64,000 nucleotides of DNA from Petrotoga mobilis SJ95 (GTDB lineage: Bacteria; Thermotogota; Thermotogae; Petrotogales; Petrotogaceae): the NCBI RefSeq assembly GCF_000018605.1, contig NC_010003.1, forward strand, positions 1,836,501 to 1,900,500, in the 5' to 3' direction. The notes below the pieces were generated by a model. The model searched no databases and was not told the DNA's origin. It worked only from the letters and a program-made list of their open reading frames with translations. The position numbers and the translations under genes are program-made. This document shows positions 18,505-35,369 of this stretch, piece after piece (position 1 is the stretch's first letter; every line of letters starts with the position of its first letter).

Positions 18505-18533
18505 TTGACAACTCAGTTTTTTTATGTTATAAT
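18505..18533 (+). promoter_or_regulatory. Perfect-consensus promoter of the arginine operon
   Basis: TTGACA (18505-18510), exactly 17 bp, TATAAT (18528-18533), with an extended -10 TG at 18525-18526. It starts 3 bp after the upstream stop codon. Predicted transcription start is near 18540, giving a leader of about 260 nt before argJ. Confidence 0.9.
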
Positions 18534-18567
18534 CCCTAAAATTTAACGGAAGGAGATTTTTAAATTT

Positions 18568-18678
18568 ATGACTAATTGTGAAAAAAATTTCACTTCATAT
18601 AATCAAATGAATTTAAATAACGATAGGAGGCGCCCATGTAGCCGGTGGATCATAAGCACCGGTAATGGGTGCTTATGA
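18568..18678 (+). CDS. Putative 36-codon leader peptide with clustered Arg codons
   Basis: ATG at 18568 follows AAGGAGA (18550-18556) and reads through to TGA at 18676. Codons 20-22 are AGG-AGG-CGC (Arg-Arg-Arg) and codon 26 is CGG (Arg); there are no other Arg codons. The peptide centre is NNDRRRPCSRW. It lies between the promoter and the terminator of an arginine-synthesis operon, the position of an attenuation leader. The ribosome site is 11 nt from ATG, slightly long. The AGGAGG could instead be an internal Shine-Dalgarno sequence. Confidence 0.55.
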   Translation: MTNCEKNFTSYNQMNLNNDRRRPCSRWIISTGNGCL

Positions 18679-18728
18679 GGTTGGAGATGGTTACTCTCCT
18701 AATTTAGTTTTAATCCATGCGGCTACAT
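18636..18728 (+). promoter_or_regulatory. Structured arg leader RNA with antiterminator helix
   Basis: ATGTAGCCG (18636-18644) is perfectly complementary to CGGCTACAT (18720-18728), which is the 5' arm of the terminator. The closed region holds a perfect 10-bp hairpin (651-660 with 668-677, loop GGTAATG) and a 5-bp hairpin (683-687 with 695-699, loop TGGTTAC; all +18000). The two 7-nt loops can pair GTAA:TTAC. An alternative hairpin CCGGTG/CACCGG (18642-18647 with 18657-18662) excludes both the long helix and the 10-bp hairpin. This is the form of a transcription attenuator or riboswitch. Confidence 0.7.
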
Positions 18729-18754
18729 CTTTTAAGATGTGGCCGTTTTTTTTT
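18720..18754 (+). terminator. Leader terminator (attenuator) before argJ
   Basis: Twelve-pair stem CGGCTACATCTT (18720-18731) with AAGATGTGGCCG (18734-18745), one G-T wobble, followed by nine T residues (18746-18754). It lies 46 bp upstream of argJ with no stop-gene before it, so it can only regulate the arg operon. Confidence 0.9.
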
Positions 18755-18800: not shown

Positions 18801-20027
18801 ATGGAAAGTACAGAAATTATGCAAGAAGATATTGTTTTACCTTTGGGTTTTAAAGTCTGGGGAATTCATTGTGGAATCAAGAAGTCCAAAAAAGATTTAG
18901 GATTGATATACTCAGAAAAAAAGGCAAATGCATCAGCTGTTTTCACAACGAACAAAGTTAAAGCGGCTCCAGTTATTTTGAGTATGGAGAACATTAAGGA
19001 TAACGAAATACAAGCTGTTATTGTGAATAGTGGTAACGCAAACGCTTGCACTGGTGTAAAAGGATATTCAGATGCGATAAGCATGGCAGAAAAAACCGCT
19101 CAGATCTTAAATTTAAAGTCAGAAGATGTATTTGTAAGTTCAACAGGTGTTATAGGTGTTCCATTGCCAATTGAAAAAATTTTAAACGGCATAGAATCAT
19201 TTGAAAAAAATATTGATTTAACAAATGATGATCTTTTAAGTTTCGCACAGGCGATAATGACTACAGATACCTTCCCAAAAATTAATTCTACACAAGTTGT
19301 GATTGGGGGTAAAAAGATAACATTAACCGGGGTTGCCAAAGGTTCAGGTATGATTCATCCCAATATGGCTACAATGTTGTCTTTCATCATGACAGATGCA
19401 AACATTTCTAAATCTGCTTTGAATAAGGCCTTAAAGCACTCTGTAGATAATTCTTTTAATTTAATAACGGTTGATGGTGACACAAGTACCAACGATACGG
19501 TGCTTATTCTGGCAAATAAGCAAGCAAAAAACGAAGAAATTACAGAAGATTCTTCTGAATACAATTTATTTCAAAAAGCTCTTTATGAAGTAGTTGAAAA
19601 TTTAGCTAAAAAAATCGTTATGGATGGGGAAGGAGCTACTAAATTTTTCGAGGTACAAGTAAAAAATGCTAAGACGAAAGAAGATGCTAAATTGATCTCA
19701 AGGTCTATAGCCAAGTCTAATTTAGTCAAAACAGCAATTCATGGAGAGGATGCTAATTGGGGAAGAGTGCTGGCAGCCGCTGGTTATTCAGGTGGAAACT
19801 TTGATCCTGATAAGGTAGATGTCTGGTTTCAAAGTTGTGTGGGAAAGATTCAACTTTGTCAAGATGGTCATTTTATAGATTTTAACGAAGTTAAAGCAAA
19901 AGAAATTCTAGGTAAGAAAGAATTAAAAATTATTGTAGATTTAAAAGATGGTGAAGAGAGTGCTATTTCTTGGGGATGTGATCTTAGTTACAAATATGTA
20001 GAAATAAATGGAGGGTACAGAACATGA
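18801..20027 (+). CDS. argJ: Bifunctional ornithine acetyltransferase/N-acetylglutamate synthase ArgJ
   Basis: A 408-aa ArgJ, which transfers acetyl from N-acetylornithine to glutamate (and may also use acetyl-CoA). The self-cleavage motif KGSGMIHPNMATML puts the nucleophile at Thr191, giving alpha and beta chains. Other marks are AVFTTNKVKAAPV, VNSGNANACTG, VDGDTSTNDTVLI and GEDANWGRVLAAAGYSG. ATG with GAGGGAGG upstream. First gene of the operon, immediately after the attenuator. Presence of argJ with no argA or argE here indicates the acetyl-recycling route. Confidence 0.96.
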   Translation: MESTEIMQEDIVLPLGFKVWGIHCGIKKSKKDLGLIYSEKKANASAVFTTNKVKAAPVILSMENIKDNEIQAVIVNSGNANACTGVKGYSDAISMAEKTAQILNLKSEDVFVSSTGVIGVPLPIEKILNGIESFEKNIDLTNDDLLSFAQAIMTTDTFPKINSTQVVIGGKKITLTGVAKGSGMIHPNMATMLSFIMTDANISKSALNKALKHSVDNSFNLITVDGDTSTNDTVLILANKQAKNEEITEDSSEYNLFQKALYEVVENLAKKIVMDGEGATKFFEVQVKNAKTKEDAKLISRSIAKSNLVKTAIHGEDANWGRVLAAAGYSGGNFDPDKVDVWFQSCVGKIQLCQDGHFIDFNEVKAKEILGKKELKIIVDLKDGEESAISWGCDLSYKYVEINGGYRT

Positions 20028-23164: not shown

Positions 23165-26100
23165 ATGCCAAAAAAACGTGAAATAAAAAATGTTTTAGTT
23201 ATAGGTTCTGGACCAATAATAATAGGTCAAGCAGCAGAATTCGATTATTCAGGAACCCAAGCTTGTAAATCTTTAAAAGAAGAAGGATGTAAAGTAATAT
23301 TGGTAAACAACAATCCTGCAACTATTATGACTGATACAGAAATAGCAGATGTAGTTTATATGGAAAACCTTGAAATGGATACTTTAATTTCCATTATAGA
23401 AAAAGAAAAACCGGATGGGATTTTAGGAACACTTGGAGGACAAACAGCCTTAAATCTAATTATCCAATTAAAGGATAGTGGAATTATCGATAAATACGAT
23501 ATTCAAGAATTGGGAACATCGGTTGAATCCATAAAAATAGCAGAAAGTAGAGAATTATTTAAAAGAAAAATGCAAGAAATTGAAGAACCTATCGCTGAAA
23601 GCCTCACGGTGTCGACAGTATCCGAAGCCATAAATTTTGCTAACAAAGTTGGGTATCCTTTGATAATACGCCCAGCATACACTTTAGGAGGAACAGGTGG
23701 TGGATTTGCTTACAACGAAGAGGAGTTAATAGAATTTGTAGAGAATGGGTTGAAAAAGAGCATGATGAAAGAGGTCTTAATAGAAAGATCCTTATTGGGT
23801 TGGAAAGAGATCGAATACGAATTGGTTAGGGATTCTTTTGATAATTGCATCACCGTATGTAATATGGAAAATTTTGATCCTGTAGGAATTCACACCGGAG
23901 ATAGTATAGTTGTTGCACCTTCTCAAACGTTGACAGATCAAGAACATCAAATGTTAAGGGACTCATCCATTAAGATAATAAAAGCTTTAAAGATAGAAGG
24001 TGCTTGCAATATTCAATTTGCCCTCAATCCTTATAACGAAGAATATCGAGTTATTGAAGTGAATCCTCGTTTGAGTAGATCCAGTGCCTTAGCGTCCAAA
24101 GCAACGGGGTATCCTATAGCAAAAATTGCTACAAAAATCGCAATAGGATTTTCTTTGGATGAGATAAAAAATCCCGTTACTGGAAAAACAACAGCTTTTT
24201 TTGAACCATCTTTAGATTATGTTGTCACAAAGATCCCCCGCTGGCCTTTTGATAAGTTTTATCAAGCTGATAAAAAGATAGGTACACAAATGAAATCCAC
24301 TGGTGAAACGATGGCTATTGGACGTACCTTTGAAAGTTCTTTATTAAAGGCGGTACGCTCTCTTGATATGAAAATTAAAGGCTTGAGAATTAAAGAGGTT
24401 CAAAAAGAGAGCGATGAAGAATTAGTAGAACATTTACAAATTCCGAACGAAAAAAGATTGTTTCATATTGCCGAAGCACTTAGAAGAGGTTATAAGGTTT
24501 TTGATATTCATAGATTAACCTTCATAGACGAATGGTTTTTAGAAAAAATAAAAAACATCGTCGATTTTGAAAATACTATTAGATTCTCCCAATTGAATTA
24601 CGACCTATTACTTGAAGCAAAGGGTCTTGGCTTTTCAGACCAAGAAATATCTGAATTAAACGGGTTACAAGAAGATCAAGTTAGAGAATTGAGAAAAACC
24701 TATGCTATTACTCCGTCATACAAAATGGTTGACACATGTGCAGCGGAGTTTGATTCAGTAACACAATATCTCTACTCAACTTATGGTGAAGAGGACGAAA
24801 TAGAGGTTCACAAGGACATAAAAAAAGTCATAGTTATAGGTGGAGGACCGATAAGGATCGGACAAGGGGTGGAGTTTGATTATTGTACAGTTAAAGCTCT
24901 ATGGGCATTAAAAGAAAAATGTATCAAATCAATCATCATAAACAACAATCCTGAAACCGTCAGTACAGATTTTGATACAGGTGATAGATTGTACTTCGAA
25001 CCCCTTACTCAAGAAGATGTTTTGAATATCATAGAAAAAGAAGATCCAATGGGGACAATGGTCATGTTTGGAGGGCAAACAGCTTTAAATCTAGGTGAAG
25101 AACTTGAAAGACATGGAATCAAAATCTTGGGAACATCATATGAGCATATTGATTTGTGTGAAGATAGAAAAAGATTTTCACTGTTGCTAAAAGAGTTGGA
25201 GATCAATCAGCCTCGTGGTGGGTACGTTACTTCATTTGATGAAGCTAGAGAAATTGCTAAGCGTTTAGGGTTTCCTCTTTTAGTTAGACCCTCTTATGTG
25301 ATTGGAGGACAATCTATTGAAAAGGTTAATTCCGAAGATGAATTATTCGAGTACTTATCACATGCTTTAGACTTATCACCCAATAGACCAGTTCTAATAG
25401 ATGAATACATAGAAGGAGTAGAAGTTGAAGTTGATGCCGTCTCTGATGGAGAAAATGTATTAATTCCTGGAATAATGGAACATATTGAAAAAGCGGGAAT
25501 TCATTCAGGTGACAGTTTTGCCGTATTTCCTGCCAAAACCTTGTCAGAATTAGAAGAGAAAGAAATTGTGAGATACGTTGAAAAAATATCCAAAGCGGTG
25601 AAAGTTAAGGGTTTAATAAACATTCAATTTATCGTGAAAGAGGGAAAAGTTTACGTTATTGAAGTGAATCCTAGGGCTTCAAGAACGGTTCCGATAATCA
25701 GTAAAGTAACAGGAATTCCAATGATAAAACTGGCAGTTGAAATTGCGTTAGGTAATAACTTGAAAGAACTTGGGTATTATGAACCTTTTTATCTAAAAAT
25801 CCCATATACGGTGGTTAAAGCGCCAATATTTTCATTAGAAAAATTGCCAGGTGTTGAAGTTGCCTTAGGTGCAGAGATGAAATCTACAGGGGAAACTCTT
25901 GGCATCGATTTCGACTATCATAATGCGATGTATAAGGCTTTTAAAAGTGCTCATTTGGATGTTCCTTCTACGGGTAATGTACTATTATCATTTCCAGAAA
26001 AAGAAGTGAGTGGAAGTAAAAGTTTTGTTAAATATCTTCAAAGCTGTGGATACGAATTGTGGGGAACTACTGGGACAGCAGAAGCCTTCAAATTGATGGA

Positions 26101-27655
26101 TATTACAATAAAAGAGATAGATCACCAAAAATCATTAGAGTTAGTAAAGAAAGGTTATTTTTCAATGGTTATTAATTTACCTACAAAAGGTAAAAACGTA
26201 TCCAACTTTGGATTCAAATTAAGAAGAACGTCTTTAGAAAACGGCATTCCTCTATTTACAGCATTGGAAACAGCTCAAAAATCAATTGAAGCAACAAAGA
26301 ATTGCAAAATCGGAAAAAATAATGTACAGTCCTTGAACGAATACGTAGGTTATTATCATAATCTACAAAAAAATTTTCAAATATCAAAAAGAGGTGATTT
26401 ATTTATGAAAACCGGGGAAAAGGTAGTATTGGCATATTCAGGAGGGTTAGATACATCTGTAATCATACCATGGTTAAAAGAAAAGTATAATTGTGAAATT
26501 ATTGCAGTATGTATTGATGTAGGTCAAGGAGAAGAAACACATGTTATCGAGAAAAAAGCTCTTTCAAGTGGTGCAAGTAAGGTTTACGTAGAAGATGTTG
26601 TGGAAGAATTTGTAACCGATTATATTTTTCCCACCTTAAAAGCTGGAGCAATCTACGAGGGTAAATACTTGTTGGGAACATCCTTTGCAAGACCTCTAAT
26701 GGCAAAAAAACTAGTTGAGATTGCCCAAAAAGAAGGTGCAAATGTTATTGCTCATGGTTGTACGGGTAAAGGTAACGATCAAGTAAGATTTGAAGTATCT
26801 ATTAAGGCATTAGATCCTTCTATAAAAATTATTGCTCCTTGGAGAATATGGGAAATTAAGTCTAGGGAGGAAGAAATTGCCTATGCCCAAAAGAAGGGAA
26901 TTCCAATATCTATAACCAAAGAAAAAATATACAGTGTAGATAAAAATATATGGCATATAAGCCATGAAGGCGGAGATTTAGAGGATCCTTGGAATGAACC
27001 TAAAGCTGAGTTATTCGATATGGTTACTCCACCCGAAAAAGCACCCGATGTTGCTGAATATGTAACCATAGAATTTGAAAAAGGGATTCCAGTGAAGATA
27101 AACGAAGAAGACCTTTCTCCCGTAGAGTTGATAAAGAAAGCCAATGAAATTGCATCAATAAATGGTGTGGGGATTGCAGATATCGTAGAAAATCGATTAG
27201 TTGGAATGAAATCAAGAGGTGTGTATGAAACTCCAGGTGGAACATTACTATATACTGCACACAAAGAACTGGAAAGCTTGGTACTTGACAAAGAAACGTC
27301 AAGATTCAAAGATTTAGTGGCACAAAAGTATGCGGATCTTGTTTATAATGGATTGTGGTTCTCTCAGTTGAAGGAGAGTTTAGATGCTTTTGTAGATGAA
27401 ACACAGAAGGTGGTTACCGGTGTTGTGAAATTGAAACTTTACAAGGGAAATATTATAACTGCAGGATTAAGTTCACCATATTCCTTATACAACGAAGAGT
27501 TAGCTACATTTGGAGAAGATAAAATTTACGACCAAAAGGATGCAGAAGGTTTTATAAACTTGTTTGGACTACCTTTGAAGATGAGAGCTTATCAGATGAA
27601 GCATTTTGTTGAAAATCAAAAATACGACAAAACGACTGTAGGAGGAGAACAATGA
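23165..27655 (+). CDS. carB: Carbamoyl-phosphate synthase large subunit fused in frame to argininosuccinate synthase
   Basis: One uninterrupted 1496-codon frame. Residues 1-1060 are a complete CarB: two ATP-grasp halves (first from [21 protein letters not shown]; second from [20 protein letters not shown] near residue 555), oligomerisation region, and a C-terminal MGS-like domain (about 945-1060). A 20-residue linker follows, then a complete ArgG from residue 1081 ([11 protein letters not shown]). CarB and ArgG normally end and start separately. The linker still encodes a ribosome site and ATG for argG, so the cell may make CarB-ArgG, free ArgG, or both. Sequencing error removing a stop cannot be excluded. 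Confidence 0.9.
26405..27655 (+). CDS. argG: Argininosuccinate synthase (3' part of the carB frame, with its own start signals)
   Basis: From ATG 26405 the product is 416 aa, the normal ArgG size. The PP-loop ATP site is [20 protein letters not shown]; later blocks are [41 protein letters not shown] and [13 protein letters not shown]. It condenses citrulline and aspartate. AGAGGTGA (26390-26397) lies 7 nt before the ATG, so internal initiation is likely even though the upstream carB frame has no stop. It overlaps argH by 4 bp. No ornithine carbamoyltransferase gene (argF) is present here. Confidence 0.88.
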
Positions 27656-34103: not shown

Positions 34104-35270
34104 TTGAAAGATAGAATTTATAAGATAGTTATAAAGGTTGGTAGTAGTTCAATAGCCGATGAGAATGGAATAAATGTTGGTAAGATGAATAAAATCGTCG
34201 AGCAAGTGACTGAATTAAAGTTTAAAAGAAAAAAAGATATAATTATTGTTTCATCAGGAGCTATTGCCGCTGGCAAAAGTGAGTTAGGTTACCGTTATAA
34301 ACCTTATTCTGTTTCTGAAAAGCAGGCTTGTGCAGCAGTTGGTCAAGGTGTGTTGATCTCTAAATATCGTGATCTTTTTGCAGTTAAAAATATTAAAGTG
34401 GCTCAAATACTTTTAACGGCTGACGATTTTTCTAATCGTCAGCGTTATTTAAATGCATACAATACGATGAATGCACTTTTAGAAAATGATGTAGTACCTA
34501 TTGTAAATGAAAACGATACAGTAACGACAGATGAAATTAAATTAGGCGATAATGATGTTTTGTCTGCTCAAGTTGCAAGCTTGTTGGAAGCAGACTTATT
34601 GATCATTCTCTCGGATATTCCAGGATTATTAAAAAATTTAGGGAACCCGAAATCGCTGATTAATATTGTTGAAGAAGTTACCCCCGAGCTTGAAAATCTT
34701 GCCAACGGAAAGAGTGGCAAACTTGGTACTGGAGGAATGAGTTCAAAATTAAAAGCAGCAAAGATTTCCAATGCTTCAGGAATACCTTTAACAATTCTCC
34801 CATCTTACGAAGAGGGTATCATCACAAAAGCTGTTGATAATATTGAAAATACGAAGTTCAACATTGGTACAACCTTTTTACCTAAAGATAAAAAGATGAG
34901 CAAAAGGAAAAGGTGGATTCAGTTCAGCTTAAAGCCAAAAGGAGAATTGATTGTGGATAATGGAGCTCGCGAGGCACTTTTAAAAGGAAAAAGTTTGTTA
35001 GCGGTAGGAATTGTAAGTTTAACAGGAAATTTTTCCATCGGAGATCTGGTGATAGTCTCCAATAAAAAAGGAGAAAATATCGGAAGGGGTTTGGTAAACT
35101 ATTCATCAAAGGAATTGAAAGAAATAATTGGTAAGAAAACCAATGAAATTCTTACGTTCAAAGACAACGTTGGTCCTGAAGAAGTAATACACAGGGATAA
35201 TTTAGTTATAATGGAGGCAACGGAGGGATTTGAACCCTCGAATAACGGTTTTGCAGACCGCCGCCTTTGA
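34104..35270 (+). CDS. proB: Glutamate 5-kinase
   Basis: A 388-aa kinase for the first step of proline synthesis. TTG 34104 gives KDRIYKIVIKVGSSSIAD directly behind GGTTGGTGA. Amino-acid-kinase domain motifs: SSGAIAAGKSELGY, NENDTVTTDEIKLGDND, GTGGMSSKLKAAK; a PUA domain follows from about residue 275 (RWIQFSLKPKGELIVDNGA). The family normally stops near EEVIHRDNLVI. Here the frame continues for about 20 codons through the antisense strand of tRNA-Cys before TGA, giving an artificial-looking tail. Probably draws glutamate from the preceding three-enzyme route. Confidence 0.92.
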   Translation: MKDRIYKIVIKVGSSSIADENGINVGKMNKIVEQVTELKFKRKKDIIIVSSGAIAAGKSELGYRYKPYSVSEKQACAAVGQGVLISKYRDLFAVKNIKVAQILLTADDFSNRQRYLNAYNTMNALLENDVVPIVNENDTVTTDEIKLGDNDVLSAQVASLLEADLLIILSDIPGLLKNLGNPKSLINIVEEVTPELENLANGKSGKLGTGGMSSKLKAAKISNASGIPLTILPSYEEGIITKAVDNIENTKFNIGTTFLPKDKKMSKRKRWIQFSLKPKGELIVDNGAREALLKGKSLLAVGIVSLTGNFSIGDLVIVSNKKGENIGRGLVNYSSKELKEIIGKKTNEILTFKDNVGPEEVIHRDNLVIMEATEGFEPSNNGFADRRL

Positions 35271-35288
35271 CCCCTTGGCTACGTTGCC
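35212..35288 (-). tRNA. tRNA-Cys (anticodon GCA)
   Basis: Cloverleaf on the minus strand: acceptor GGCAACG/CGTTGCC, anticodon loop CTGCAAA with stem GCGGT/ACCGT, T arm GAGGG-TTCAAAT-CCCTC, discriminator T and encoded CCA. Its 3' 59 bases lie under the end of proB on the other strand. It is the second gene of an Asp-Cys pair. Confidence 0.95.
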
Positions 35289-35292
35289 AAAT

Positions 35293-35369
35293 TGGCGGGG
35301 ACGACGGGACTCGAACCCGCGGCCACCGGTGTGACAGACCGGCATGATAACCAACTTCACCACGTCCCC
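35293..35369 (-). tRNA. tRNA-Asp (anticodon GTC)
   Basis: Cloverleaf on the minus strand: acceptor GGGGACG/CGTCCCC, anticodon loop CTGTCAC with stem GCCGGT/ACCGGT-type pairing, T arm GCGGG-TTCGAGT-CCCGT, discriminator G and encoded CCA. Four bases separate it from tRNA-Cys, so the two are one transcript. Confidence 0.95.

Follow-up and report, generated by a model that had tools for sequence, protein, structure and literature searches.

Transcription attenuation by a translated leader peptide is textbook biology. The trp, his, leu, thr, ilv and phe attenuators of enterobacteria each have a short open reading frame (ORF) with cognate control codons and a terminator before the first gene; a competing antiterminator can form instead, and the position of the ribosome decides between the two. 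Arginine T-boxes act on arginine genes at the RNA level in response to the charging of Arg-tRNA, binding the tRNA directly by means of a specifier loop and a T-box sequence. In Thermotoga, the genes of this pathway are controlled by the protein repressor ArgR, acting at ARG boxes. Upstream peptides linked to arginine metabolism are found in SpeFL and the fungal arginine attenuator peptide, in which a metabolite is sensed through peptide-dependent arrest of the ribosome. In a 2013 survey of RNA regulators, the only attenuator specificities listed are those for His, Leu, Thr, Trp, Ile/Val and Phe, and leader-peptide attenuators are proposed to have arisen in gamma-proteobacteria (PMC3766115); arginine is listed as T-box-controlled elsewhere in a study of actinobacteria (PMC1262725). 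No arginine leader-peptide attenuator in Thermotogota was found in the open-access literature, subscription papers lying outside the scope.

The argJ leader of Petrotoga mobilis SJ95 lies in a 64,000-nucleotide stretch of DNA, hereafter the window (Table 1). It shares its layout with the enterobacterial attenuators and is very probably an arginine-specific, ribosome-mediated transcription attenuator, that is, a known mechanism with a new specificity and in a new setting. Unlike those systems, it carries arginine codons, belongs to the phylum Thermotogota and matches no Rfam attenuator family. The arrangement of its arms also appears to differ: the predicted partner of the control-codon arm is a third arm and not the antiterminator arm itself, which is hidden by being enclosed within the resulting helix.

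Table 1. Features of the argJ leader, numbered from the first letter of the window
Feature	Coordinates (strand)	Basis or remarks
Sigma-70-type promoter, TTGACA-17-TATAAT	18505..18533 (+)	Read directly; -35 TTGACA 18505-18510, 17-nt spacer, -10 TATAAT 18528-18533
Shine-Dalgarno sequence AAGGAG of leader ORF	18550..18555 (+)	12 nt before ATG
Leader ORF, peptide MTNCEKNFTSYNQMNLNNDRRRPCSRWIISTGNGCL	18568..18678 (+)	In frame with Arg block in 9/9 argJ leaders; 36 codons, ATG 18568, TGA 18676
Control codons AGG AGG CGC (Arg-Arg-Arg)	18625..18633 (+)	Conserved in argJ leaders
Arm A, overlaps control codons, pairs with D	18628..18637 (+)	Two pairs changed on both sides; arm-swap test
Arm B, antiterminator 5' arm ATGTAGCCGGTGGAT	18636..18650 (+)	Covariation; folding; arm-swap test
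C:D hairpin	18651..18677 (+)	18651-18660 with 18668-18677; one pair changed on both sides; masked folding
Arm D, pairs with A (sequestered) or, shifted, with C	18665..18674 (+)	Covariation; arm-swap test
Spacer hairpin E	18680..18704 (+)	Structure without sequence retained in most relatives
Arm F, pairs with B (antiterminator) or terminator 3' arm	18713..18728 (+)	Folding; covariation; arm-swap test
Intrinsic terminator	18719..18754 (+)	Hairpin 18719-18746 (12 pairs) and nine T's 18746-18754
argJ, first gene of argJ-argB-argD-carA-carB/argG-argH-argC	18801..20027 (+)	NCBIfam equivalog matches

By its matches to NCBIfam models, the operon downstream of the leader is one of arginine biosynthesis. 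Within it, a single open frame (23165-27655, 1496 amino acids) spans carB and argG, comprising CarB, a similar linker and ArgG. Four species of the genus (G000, the source genome, G013, G014 and G015) have this frame open; G016 and more distant relatives do not. It may be read as a recent CarB-ArgG fusion or a read-through pair.

Direct reading bears out much of what the first-pass annotation described: the perfect promoter, the terminator with its run of T's just before argJ, and three pairing words, ATGTAGCCG at 18636, CGGCTACAT at 18720 and ATGTGGCCG at 18737. It had overlooked the leader ORF with its AGG AGG CGC codons, the A:D/B:C helix (18628-18674) and the alternative C:D hairpin. The leader folds more stably than dinucleotide shuffles of itself (z = -5.83, with none of 200 shuffles as good), as does its core (z = -4.24, one of 200 as good).

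argJ is present in nine of 21 genomes of the family, and the same nine carry the leader. Run against 103 genomes of the phylum, a covariance model built on these nine argJ leaders matched more weakly, though over its full length, before argG in seven of them; reading of upstream argG regions added two more leaders (G058 and G065), bringing the argG leaders to nine genomes from three other families. Some weak model matches (L079, L084, L085 and L179) are not attenuator-like by eye. The terminator lies between the leader ORF and the first gene and is present in 18/18 leaders, and a TTGACA/TATAAT-like promoter also precedes the leaders of relatives. When the terminator arms were sought in 84,980 species genomes, only four exact matches emerged, three in Thermotogota and one, probably by chance, in Cypionkella.

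Arginine accounts for 2.9% of codons here, and AGG and CGC for 22% and 2.8% of arginine codons; the leader ORF contains three in a row and a fourth, CGG, at 18643-18645, where it extends into the RNA switch. The ORF varies in length and N-terminus among the nine argJ leaders and in each of them leads, in frame, to N-N-[DN]-R-R-R-x-x-S-R-W. Most argG leader peptides have [IV]-R-R-x-x-x-R-W-V or R-R-R-x-x-x-R at the C-terminus, that of G062 deviating with R-K-R-T-I-C-R, and their arginine codons are CGT-AGA-CGT, CGG-AGA-CGG, AGA-CGG, AGG-CGG or AGG-CGA. As arginine is kept while the codons move between AGN and CGN, the comparison argues for selection acting on the meaning of the codons. A Shine-Dalgarno sequence and an ORF in frame with the arginine block were found in 13 of the 14 argJ and argG leaders tested. 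Such an ORF arises in shuffled upstream DNA in 0.2-9.6% of cases per leader across the 14, and in 2-13 of 1000 shuffles per leader for the argJ leaders. The 12-nucleotide spacing between Shine-Dalgarno sequence and start codon is long, which counts against the attenuator reading. The conserved arginine-codon ORF strongly supports translation-based attenuation, one of two possibilities raised in the first-pass annotation. A start-stop minigene, AGGAGG-CGCCC-ATG-TAG (18625-18641), was also considered and was rejected: G017 has AAG in place of its ATG, and neither G002 nor G003 retains the ATG-TAG.

Two alternative structures are conserved among the argJ leaders. In the sequestered form, A pairs with D and, inside that helix, part of arm B (GCCGGTG, 18641-18647) pairs with CACCGGT (18657-18663), hiding B; in the antiterminated form, B pairs with F. 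Across the argJ alignment of nine leaders, 98.1% of cells are paired in the sequestered form, with two pairs changed on both sides, and 96.5% in the antiterminated form, with three; control helices slid by 1-3 columns pair in 27-46%. That only 2-3 pairs are changed on both sides among the 8 distinct sequences counts against the attenuator reading. The comparison of argJ upstream regions, which had been proposed as a check, reveals compensatory changes in A:D, B:F and C:D, and these, together with conservation, support the earlier proposal that the 5' word competes with a terminator arm. In an arm-swap test, arms were re-paired between 11 representative argJ and argG leaders, a design that controls in part for relatedness. 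The native A:D and B:F pairings were stronger than 5000 of 5000 re-pairings, and the native terminator arms stronger than all but 18 of 5000; A:D pairing was weak in G022, G039 and G062. When A is masked in folding, the C:D hairpin forms and B is left free. On this evidence the antiterminator appears to exclude the terminator and to be governed by the arm overlapping the control codons.

It is attractive to ask whether so strongly conserved a structure, lying upstream of a biosynthetic operon and equipped with terminator and antiterminator, might be a riboswitch that binds arginine, ornithine or a similar ligand, with the A:D/B:C/E structure as aptamer. This was the other possibility that had been raised. 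Sequence conservation, however, falls on the switching arms and the control codons, whilst hairpin E and its loop vary freely; comparison of the leaders did not reveal a conserved unpaired core for a ligand, and the arginine ORF is retained with swapped codons. An Rfam search of the leader gave no match at gathering score, the best hits below threshold falling far under the cut-offs, in line with the earlier remark that no named riboswitch class could be recognized. A ligand-binding switch is therefore highly improbable. As had been noted, there are two loops of 7 nt that carry GTAA and TTAC, but the second is TGGTTAT in close relatives and unrelated in diverged ones, and the proposed GTAA:TTAC loop-loop contact was rejected as not conserved. 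The sole Rfam matches in the window are two adjacent tRNA genes (35215-35369, - strand).

Arginine T-boxes exist in other bacteria (PMC1262725), and the leader ORF contains a palindrome, GTGAAAAAAATTTCAC (18579-18594), that resembles an ArgR box and is partly kept in close relatives. Control by a T-box or other tRNA-binding element, or by ArgR at the palindrome, is nevertheless extremely unlikely. The Rfam T-box model gives no match in the leader, where an ORF would be read in place of direct tRNA binding. ArgR (PF01316 above cut-off) is absent from all 18 genomes with the arginine attenuator, the source genome included, and the palindrome was accordingly rejected as an ArgR box. The eight genomes in which ArgR was detected all belong to family f10; the Thermotoga maritima control also gave a match. 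The 33 genomes that contain argG divide into 18 with the attenuator, eight where ArgR is present and argG has no attenuator, six without either and one in which a contig end interrupts the region; these numbers track clades and are not independent. The repressor is confined to genomes whose argG is not preceded by the attenuator.

For the attenuator, the following sequence of events can be inferred. The leader ORF would be translated by a ribosome which, when Arg-tRNA is ample, would pass Arg-Arg-Arg and allow A to pair with D. Arm B would then lie inside this helix, retained by the inner B:C hairpin; F would pair with the terminator 3' arm and transcription would end at the run of T's. When Arg-tRNA is short, the ribosome would stall at AGG-AGG-CGC and cover A; D would pair with C instead, freeing B to pair with F. 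With B:F formed the terminator could not form, and argJBD-carAB-argGHC would be read.

Folding at equilibrium always favours the terminator in the full-length RNA, and therefore such a switch must be kinetic. Masked equilibrium folding and mean accessibility of B were both tried and discarded, as neither separated the ribosome states. A home-made and rough co-transcriptional model, with assumed footprint and rates, was applied to seven argJ leaders. Untranslated RNA, or RNA with a ribosome at the stop codon, gave antiterminator values of 0-0.08 and mostly A:D plus terminator, G016 with a ribosome at the stop codon being the weakest case. With a ribosome stalled at the first arginine codon, modelled as covering the RNA up to 9 nt past that codon, B:F reached 0.68-1.0 at the time F emerges. 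Placing the second or third arginine codon in the A site mostly weakened the antiterminator, and the same model gave mixed results on the argG leaders; both points tell against the attenuator reading.

A second RNA model, built on lysine-type leaders and searched alongside the argJ model, matches the window leader with E = 4.3e-05 over 7 kb and 0.0187 over the whole genome. Matches of the two models lie across the phylum. Leaders with lysine codons (NKKQVKYSPGG, NKKYVKCPPGG and KKHHVKYPPGG) stand before lysC, dapF and genes for amino-acid permeases and binding proteins, and leaders with histidine runs (EIHHHN and IHHHHR) precede HisZ-like genes; such lysine and histidine leaders, built on similar RNA, speak for the attenuator reading. 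VVLI leaders are found before amidohydrolase-like genes and RHHSRCGL before binding-protein and permease genes, the names of genes downstream of the non-arginine leaders coming from reading of translations and not from a family search. The shared marks are an antiterminator arm near CCGGTGG and a terminator near GGCCACATC-GATGTGGCC. Arginine leaders translate the arm CCGGTGG as R-W and lysine leaders, using another frame, as P-G-G, which indicates that RNA arm and control codons are conserved separately.

This reading of the arm bears on a further possibility, that the leader encodes an arrest peptide sensing free arginine in the ribosome tunnel, in the manner of the fungal arginine attenuator peptide or the ornithine-sensing SpeFL. 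The recurrence of R-R-R-x-x-x-R-W in argJ and argG leaders would fit such a peptide. As lysine leaders read the same arm in another frame, however, it is the RNA and not the peptide that explains conservation of R-W; the N-termini vary, and only the arginine codon block appears conserved as peptide. An arrest peptide is thus very unlikely, and attenuation through codon reading is the preferred explanation.

Common descent of the arginine, lysine and histidine leaders is likely. It is reasonably probable, though far from assured, that Thermotogota possess one homologous attenuator chassis in which control codons have been exchanged (Arg, Lys, His and perhaps others), its targets being arginine operons where ArgR is absent, and lysine or histidine genes elsewhere in the phylum. 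If true, a codon-reading RNA would control the arginine operons of many members of a distant phylum, in genomes lacking ArgR, and a change of a few codons would seem to have adapted the same RNA frame to several amino acids. Neither the arginine nor the lysine specificity is in the survey catalogue (PMC3766115). The series of leaders is natural material for asking how the specificity of a regulator changes, and the covariance model can be used in annotating leaders.

L065, L076, L081, L153, L067 and L149, the leaders with lysine codons upstream of lysC, dapF and transporter genes, come from one family; lysine riboswitches have been reported in most Thermotogales (2013 survey, PMC3766115). Six histidine-run leaders (L165, L168, L169, L173, L174 and L180, with IHHHHR or EHHHHC) stand with a similar terminator before HisZ-like genes in genomes of the ArgR-bearing family, and such leaders are apparently histidine attenuators. 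Two others, L177 and L178, have the leader peptide NNQPEPKVWP and a similar terminator before a citrate-synthase-like gene.
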